From assembly GCF_024138165.1 (NCBI RefSeq), contig NZ_CP100000.1, positions 2,356,001 through 2,420,000 on the forward strand: a DNA stretch of 64,000 bases, read 5' to 3'. The position numbers and the translations under genes are program-made. Below the pieces are notes generated by a model that did not search any database, had not been told where the DNA came from, and saw nothing but the letters and a program-made list of their open reading frames with translations. Positions 11,532-13,028 of this stretch are shown in pieces. How positions within the stretch are numbered: the stretch's first letter is position 1; each line of letters begins with the position of its first letter. Source of the stretch: Halorussus vallis (GTDB taxonomy: Archaea > Halobacteriota > Halobacteria > Halobacteriales > Haladaptataceae).

Positions 11532-12710
11532 ATGCGCGTAGTCGCGAAGTTCGGCGGGACGAGTCTCGGCACCGGCGACCGAATCAATCGCGCGGCCGAC
11601 TCGGTGGCCGACGCCGTCTCGCACGGCCACGAGATAGCCGTCGTCGCCAGCGCGATGGGGAGCACGACCGACGACCTCCTCGACGAGATTCAGTTCGACG
11701 CCGCGGAGGCCGACCGCGCCGAAATCGTCAGCATGGGCGAGCGCACCAGTGTCCGGATGCTGAAGGCCGCCCTCGCCGCCCGCGGGGTCGACGCGCTGTT
11801 CCTCGAACCCGGCGGCGACCGCTGGCCGGTGTTCACCGACGAGCGCGGCGAGGTCGACGCCGAGCGGACTCGCGAGGCCGCCGCCGAACTCGCCGCCGAC
11901 CTCGACGGCGTGGTGCCGGTCATCACCGGGTTCCTCGCGGAGGGGCCGGACGGCGGGGTCACGACGCTCGGCCGCGGCGGGTCGGACACCACGGCCGTCA
12001 TGCTCGGTAACTACATGGACGCCGACGAGGTGGTCATCGTGACCGACGTCGAGGGCGTCATGACCGGCGACCCCCACGTCGTCGAGGGCGCGCGGAACGT
12101 CGCCGAAATCTCGGTCGACGAACTCCGCAACCTCTCGTTCCGCGGCGCGGAGGTCGTCGCCCCGAGCGCGCTCTCCTACAAGGACGACCGCCTCGACGTG
12201 CGCGTCGTCCACTACCAGCACGGCGACTTGCTGGCGGGCGGCACCAGCGTCGTCGGCGAGTTCGAGAGCCTCATCGACATGCGCGAGGAGCCGCTTGCCT
12301 GCCTGACCGTCGCCGGTCGGGCCATCCGCAACCAGCCGGGCATCCTCTCGGAGCTGTCGACCGCGCTCGGCGAGAGCGACATCAACGTCGACGCCGTCGC
12401 CAGCGGGATGGACTCGGTGACCTTCTACGTCGACGCTGAGGAGGCCGAGCGCGCCGAGAACATCCTCCACCGCGAGGTCATCGACGTCGACGCACTCTCG
12501 AGCGTCACGGTCGACGACGACGTCGCGGTCATCCGGGTCACCGGGGGCGAACTCCCGAACCGCGCGGGGGTCATCCGCGGACTGGTCGACCCCATCTCGG
12601 ACGCCCGCATCACCATCCACGACCTCATTACCAGCGCGACCAGCGTCGCGGTGTTCGTCGACTGGAACGAGCGCGAGCGCGCGCTGGAGATCATCCAGGA
12701 CGAGTTCTAG
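11532..12710 (+). CDS. lysC: Aspartate kinase
   Basis: First enzyme of lysine, threonine and methionine synthesis, phosphorylating aspartate with ATP. The 392-residue protein starts with the signature KFGGTS (6-11), has the kinase active-site stretch TTLGRGGSDTTAV and the aspartate-binding segment VTDVEGVMTGDP, and ends with two ACT domains (about 255-392, beginning LACLTVAGRAIRNQPGILSE and DDVAVIRVTGGELPNRAGVI), which normally bind lysine or threonine for feedback control. Short for aspartate kinases (usually 400-450), as in other haloarchaea. Apparently monocistronic; a hairpin-rich repeat element with a T-run begins two bases after the stop codon. Confidence 0.93.
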   Translation: MRVVAKFGGTSLGTGDRINRAADSVADAVSHGHEIAVVASAMGSTTDDLLDEIQFDAAEADRAEIVSMGERTSVRMLKAALAARGVDALFLEPGGDRWPVFTDERGEVDAERTREAAAELAADLDGVVPVITGFLAEGPDGGVTTLGRGGSDTTAVMLGNYMDADEVVIVTDVEGVMTGDPHVVEGARNVAEISVDELRNLSFRGAEVVAPSALSYKDDRLDVRVVHYQHGDLLAGGTSVVGEFESLIDMREEPLACLTVAGRAIRNQPGILSELSTALGESDINVDAVASGMDSVTFYVDAEEAERAENILHREVIDVDALSSVTVDDDVAVIRVTGGELPNRAGVIRGLVDPISDARITIHDLITSATSVAVFVDWNERERALEIIQDEF

Positions 12711-12712
12711 CG

Positions 12713-13028
12713 CCCACCTTTTTTTCTTCGTCGGGTAGCCGTGAGCGCCTTCGGCGCTCCGGCTACCGCTCCTCGAAAAAAGCTGGACCAAAAAAGGACA
12801 CGCGACTGTGCCGAGACGCGATGCGTCTCGGCACAGTCGCATCTTCGACTATTTGGTGCGATTTCTGCACTCGTACTGGTGCGGGCGCTTCGCGCCCTGC
12901 CGACCGCCACCGCACCGCGACAGCCACACGCCTCCCCAGCCGATTCCGTCGTGCCCTGTGGGCACTCAGTCATCCCTCGCGCGAAGAAGGTGCGGCCGAA
13001 ACCGCCTCGGCCGCGCCAGCGCGCGCCA
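12713..13028 (+). repeat. Dispersed hairpin-rich element, copy 2, at the 3' end of lysC
   Basis: Starts CCCACCTTTTTTTCTTCGTC two bases after the lysC stop. Hairpins: A (12734-12741 with 12760-12767, inner 12743-12749 with 12753-12759), B (12802-12819 with 12823-12840, perfect 18 bp), C (12883-12888 with 12892-12897), a short D (GCCC/GGGC near 12952-12963) and E (12992-12999 with 13007-13014). Linkers match copy 1 closely: CTCCTCGAAAAAA, TGGACCAAAAAAGG, CTGGTGCGGGCGCTTCGCGC, CCCCAGCCGA and GCGCCAGCGCGCGCC. Stems A, B and E differ yet pair. No plausible protein is encoded. The remaining 370 bases to pheS hold no other recognisable feature apart from a promoter-like GATAAACGG near 13354. Confidence 0.78.

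Follow-up and report, generated by a model that had tools for sequence, protein, structure and literature searches.

The window, a 64,000-nucleotide stretch of the Halorussus vallis genome, contains two copies of a repeated sequence, at 12713-13028 on the + strand and at about 745-1057 on the − strand. The first follows an aspartate kinase-like gene (11532-12710, +; PF00696 AA_kinase and ACT domains) that ends with the stop codon TAG at 12708-12710, and the second lies downstream of a gene at 1074-1844 (−) with the stop codon TAA at 1074-1076, a gene that carries an origin-associated OapC domain (PF09845). A preliminary description of this DNA had reported one element of 310 bp, the copies of which begin 2-18 nt past a stop codon, share their linkers and have stems that differ in sequence while remaining paired. 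The starting positions hold, the quoted linkers occur in both copies, and hairpins A and B are perfect, and different, in each; what had been taken for a single element is actually two independently dispersed repeats lying side by side, and 12713-12846 (E with hairpin B) and 12903-13028 (M3) are each found without the other. E is used here for the first repeat, which starts at CCCACC and ends with hairpin B, and M3 for the second, separate repeat.

In the + strand copy, E opens with the left boundary CCCACC and a T7C tract (12713-12726, +), a predicted + strand terminator directly 3′ of the stop codon. Hairpin A (12734-12767, +) lies between opposed T tracts, and its sequence varies among copies while the pairing is kept. 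It is followed by A6-GCTGGACC-A6 (12776-12795), i.e., TTTTTT-GGTCCAGC-TTTTTT-C on the − strand, a double terminator predicted to act on the opposite strand, and then by hairpin B (12802-12840, +), a perfect 18-bp stem of free sequence. Within the H. vallis genome E often extends to about 12898, with hairpin C (GGGCGCTTCGCGCCC; 12883-12897, +) as an optional tail, and M3 (12903-13028, +) has hairpins of its own. The second E copy (977-1057, −) has CCCACC at 1052-1057, T6C at 1045-1051 and A6-TCTGGACC-A6 at 977-996 (all −), with its hairpin B at 931-970 (−) and a more diverged M3 at 745-866 (−). At loci L009, L015, L022, L059 and L282 the loops of hairpins A and C hold nested GC-rich hairpins, which look as if the loops were preferred insertion sites.

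A search of all 5 contigs of the genome (5.05 Mb) matched the query at about 40 places, which could be separated into the two repeats. The preliminary description had made its case depend on further copies in the genome and on stem changes that keep the pairing. A covariance model built from an alignment of 19 E copies, and restricted to the first 134 bp, found about 31 strong E copies, all of them on the chromosome (contig C1), with no strong copy on the four smaller contigs C2-C5 (~1.1 Mb); in the 19 aligned copies, 16 predicted pairs had changes on both sides that preserve the pairing. M3 is commoner than E, with at least 34 copies in this genome, at least one of them on contig C2, and it also occurs alone and is abundant across most of the genus. 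It often stands in close inverted pairs that resemble REP/BIME arrays (12903-13028, 745-866, L011, L012, L016-L018, L021, L026-L030).

Beyond this genome, the core AAAAATCTGGACCAAAAA, with at most one mismatch, was present in 168 of 294 sampled haloarchaeal genomes, representing 59 of 78 genera, and a reversed-pattern control gave two matches only. A scan of named genomes yielded at least 80 loci, and among the matches listed all were haloarchaeal by their titles; weak covariance-model matches (below ~60 bits) in distant genomes were left out of the copy counts. Viral contigs gave no exact match to E, and a plasmid search gave one weak Halorussus match only. The general form of E is CCACC-T5/6-nnnn-TCGGGT-hairpin A-ACCRCTC-nnnn-A5/6-TCTGGACC-A5/6-hairpin B. 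The left boundary CCACC is precise and common to 199 copies, of which 179 have the spacer GGTCCAGA/C and 135 have C as the base after the + strand T run. A T run of 5-6 was found in 191 of the 199, a count to be read in the knowledge that the search patterns demand T and A tracts and favour such runs, and so produce part of the tract conservation themselves; moreover, the loci sampled are incomplete and not independent. The open-access literature yielded no description of E, and a search with the letters of the core returned unrelated papers only.

The 199 copies were placed relative to genes with a codon-usage gene caller (own script). For H. vallis itself, CCACC lies 1-21 nt past the stop codon of a + strand gene in 23 of 31 copies (median 3 nt), and none of the 31 stands between divergent genes. 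Over all copies, convergent gaps are enriched (76/188 vs 47/475; odds ratio 6.2, p = 4e-18) and divergent gaps are depleted (16/188 vs 143/475; odds ratio 0.22, p = 4e-10); some of the 16 copies in divergent gaps rest on weak gene calls, and one stands behind tRNA-like sequence. At L075 a copy directly follows a tRNA-like 3′ end. Two placements were distinguished: in mode 1, CCACC is no more than 25 nt from the stop codon of a + strand gene, and in mode 2 the stop codon of a − strand gene is no more than 100 nt away. The T run of mode 1 copies lies ~8-11 nt past the stop codon. For left genes directed away from E, the distance between gene start and CCACC peaks at ~40 nt, which leaves room for a haloarchaeal promoter of that gene.

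The features by which archaeal T-tract terminators are recognized are present in E, namely a T run of at least five soon after the stop codon and a position at the ends of transcription units, with divergent gaps avoided. In Haloferax volcanii, T5C terminates 95% of transcription in vivo, ending at the C (PMC7237163). It is this activity, together with the placement of E at gene ends and the C that follows its T run, that leads us to read E as a two-way terminator; judged from its sequence and surroundings, E is probably a dispersed haloarchaeal cassette that sits at gene ends and terminates transcription in both directions. A terminator module had been one of the options put forward in the preliminary description, and the gene context argues for it. 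The T-stretch terminators of H. volcanii resemble E in having T5 followed by C downstream of genes, but they consist of short T runs and lack a conserved cassette (PMC7237163); E goes beyond them in its opposed tracts on both strands, its palindrome, its GGTCCAGA spacer and its dispersal as a repeat. The conserved GGTCCAGA spacer and the hairpin feet TCGGGT/ACCRCTC would be superfluous for a T-tract terminator and may serve for binding or as a signal for mobilisation. A separate T run occurs past the repeat in Haloferax, so that E may be redundant there.

Of the 168 copies outside the H. vallis genome, 72 are flanked on both sides by long direct repeats (21-256 bp), compared with 9 of 425 control sites. 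These repeats nearly always duplicate the 3′ end of the opposite-strand (− strand) gene, and in nearly all cases the left repeat copy ends 0-9 nt from CCACC. They accompany 60 of 68 copies in mode 2 and 0 of 70 in mode 1. The 68 mode 2 copies fall into 28 gene families, with ileS-like and malic enzyme genes the most frequent, and the mode 1 copies into 51, so that copies are not independent. Differences between the two copies of a repeat number 20, 10 and 98 at codon positions 1, 2 and 3 (98 of 128 at the third position); 97 changed codons are synonymous and 28 nonsynonymous, and the stop codon is kept in 32 of 33 left repeat copies. The third-position bias implies that both repeat copies were coding until recently, because a dead duplicate would not diverge in this manner. 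A translated mini-ORF starting from GGTGG in the copied gene tail was also considered, and the frame counts (18/19/23) showed no preference.

Orthologous loci differ in whether they carry E. At the aspartate kinase locus, 4 of the 18 congeners compared have an intact E, 4 have a decayed one and 10 have none, and at the second locus of the window E is present in 2 of 12 congeners. A methyltransferase locus has E and its repeat in only 2 of 17 readable congeners. The malic enzyme locus of Haloferax carries a single 132-bp unit in most of the close species; genome G183 carries two, and G292 none, being without exactly the 132-bp unit present in G269. At the methyltransferase and malic enzyme loci the unit is thus an insertion or a clean loss, and these empty-site comparisons support another option of the preliminary description, a non-autonomous mobile repeat.

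The covariation of the stems had initially been ascribed to a possible new structured RNA, on the argument that it was difficult to account for without selection for structure. E would then act either as a stability element in 3′ UTRs or as a discrete ncRNA, with hairpins selected as RNA on the + strand, as the perfect stems with their many double changes and the same-orientation placement a few nucleotides past stop codons might suggest. Palindromes can, however, also be maintained as DNA or by use of both strands. In the copies of relatives the linkers are constant and both stems are wholly different in sequence. RNA selection on one strand should leave an excess of G-U over A-C among the departures from pairing, but in ~195 copies the two were equally frequent, with G-U 26 vs A-C 21 in hairpin A, 22 vs 31 in hairpin B and 48 and 52 when pooled, i.e., the non-Watson-Crick positions are strand-symmetric; a similar scan of the rRNA in the window, a weak control, gave 15 G-U vs 7 A-C. 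Such symmetry is consistent with a palindrome that functions, or is corrected, on both strands, and nothing in these counts indicates a structured RNA on one strand. The first T6-7C of the 12713 copy lies ~8-16 nt past the stop codon and precedes the hairpins, so that most transcripts would be expected to end upstream of them; furthermore, mode 2 copies are oriented oppositely to their gene, and no Rfam family matched E at the gathering or at lax thresholds. The structured RNA is left as the least likely of the explanations weighed here, and a quite improbable one.

A selfish miniature element dependent on a transposase, for which the direct repeats would be long target duplications and the T tracts incidental or harm-reducing, would account for the exact left boundary at CCACC, the unit-sized presence or absence at orthologous loci and the patchy distribution. 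MITEs have terminal repeats and target duplications in common with a transposon, and PATEs and small mobile repeats show no target duplication (PMC3119063). E shows none in mode 1 and does show duplication in mode 2, where the length varies from 21 to 256 bp, in place of the short, fixed length of a MITE. The duplicated segment is nearly always the 3′ end of a gene on one strand, and the differences between repeats are coding-like, which duplication at insertion does not predict. Neither an autonomous partner nor a matching viral contig turned up, and this origin is improbable. Ongoing gene conversion is the main rival to spread by recombination. Here the gene-end duplications would be local tandem duplications at palindromes, made by replication slippage and homogenised by gene conversion, with E an old, immobile terminator. 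Tandem arrays at L104, L105, L106, L181, L149 and L305 are in line with this, as is a mean identity within loci that is higher than the mean identity between species in every family compared. Local duplication is harder to reconcile with single-E loci that have two gene tails, with the empty sites in congeners, with the bias of copy divergence to synonymous changes and with a duplication end that almost always coincides with the boundary of E, and we consider it rather unlikely.

The interpretation favored here, with a probability of about two in three, is that E is a two-way terminator whose mode 2 copies have spread between orthologous genes by homologous recombination. Its palindrome is bracketed by T5-6 tracts, one per strand, with the − strand tract doubled as T5-GGTCCAGA-T5. 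A mode 1 E stands in + orientation immediately after a gene, and a mode 2 E follows a gene in − orientation; polymerase arriving from either side would stop at a T tract, leaving the neighbouring genes insulated. On the simplest reading, the left repeat copy would be the old gene end of the recipient, and the right copy would have come with E from a relative, by recombination via the gene on one side and with the repeated tail as the second homology arm on the other. Recombination between the repeats would in turn remove a mode 2 E, tandem arrays and clean loss being the expected side products of such spread. Recombinational spread also predicts recurrence at the same genes, as in the 28 families of mode 2. 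The many copies in relatives that are flanked by a duplicate of the neighbouring gene's tail appear to reflect a novel route by which such a cassette can spread. In a bolder form of the same idea, which is possible though doubtful, E would be a “portable gene end” that behaves like a homing element but lacks an endonuclease, whereby a donor gene-E-tail recombines into any E-less orthologue, replaces the gene's end, installs the terminator and leaves the recipient's tail as a relic; if true, this would account for the 3′-end repeats of one orientation, the synonymous differences and the few families that recur in many genera.

In uptake and REP sequences it is the stem that is conserved, unlike E, where the linkers are conserved and the stems are not. 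E shares dispersal as a repeat at gene ends with DNA-uptake-sequence terminators (PMC1852404) and REP/BIME (PMC2817692), and M3 resembles REP/BIME in its frequent occurrence in inverted pairs. The bidirectional intrinsic terminators of Bacillus cereus likewise use one palindrome for two convergent genes and keep its pairing through double changes, but they work by a hairpin-then-U mechanism and are not a dispersed repeat with conserved linkers (PMC5381666). With the MITEs, PATEs and small mobile repeats of Haloquadratum walsbyi, E has in common that it is small, dispersed, non-coding and palindromic, and loss by repeat-mediated deletion has been described for those transposase-free repeats (PMC3119063); E differs from them by its gene-tail duplications of 21-256 bp, its fixed place at gene ends and its class-wide range.

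With a recognisable two-way terminator, the ends of transcription units could be marked in genomes across the haloarchaea with no need for RNA data, and genetic work on these organisms would gain a ready tool. The combination of fixed linkers and freely varying stems raises the question of what reads GGTCCAGA and the hairpin feet. The synonymously diverged gene-tail duplications may directly document exchanges of gene ends among lineages, and they may provide an example of a regulatory part that spreads by recombination alone.

Several smaller observations were made along with these results. The idea that hairpin B always arises by fold-back of the target, hinted at by L108 and L124, was rejected, as breakpoints were found on every side of this hairpin. 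Of the 70 genes directly before mode 1 copies (e.g., at 12708-12726), 32 have a C-terminal Phe or Tyr, vs 51 of 622 genes (p = 3e-14), and TGA stops are rare among them (10/70 vs 358/622), perhaps reflecting protein families with fixed C-termini. Mode 2 genes (e.g., L124, L120) belong to the same few families across genera, i.e., ileS-like, malic enzyme, methyltransferase and argF-like. At L065 the tail and its relic are identical over 77 bp and differ in the last 46 bp, a patch that resembles gene conversion.
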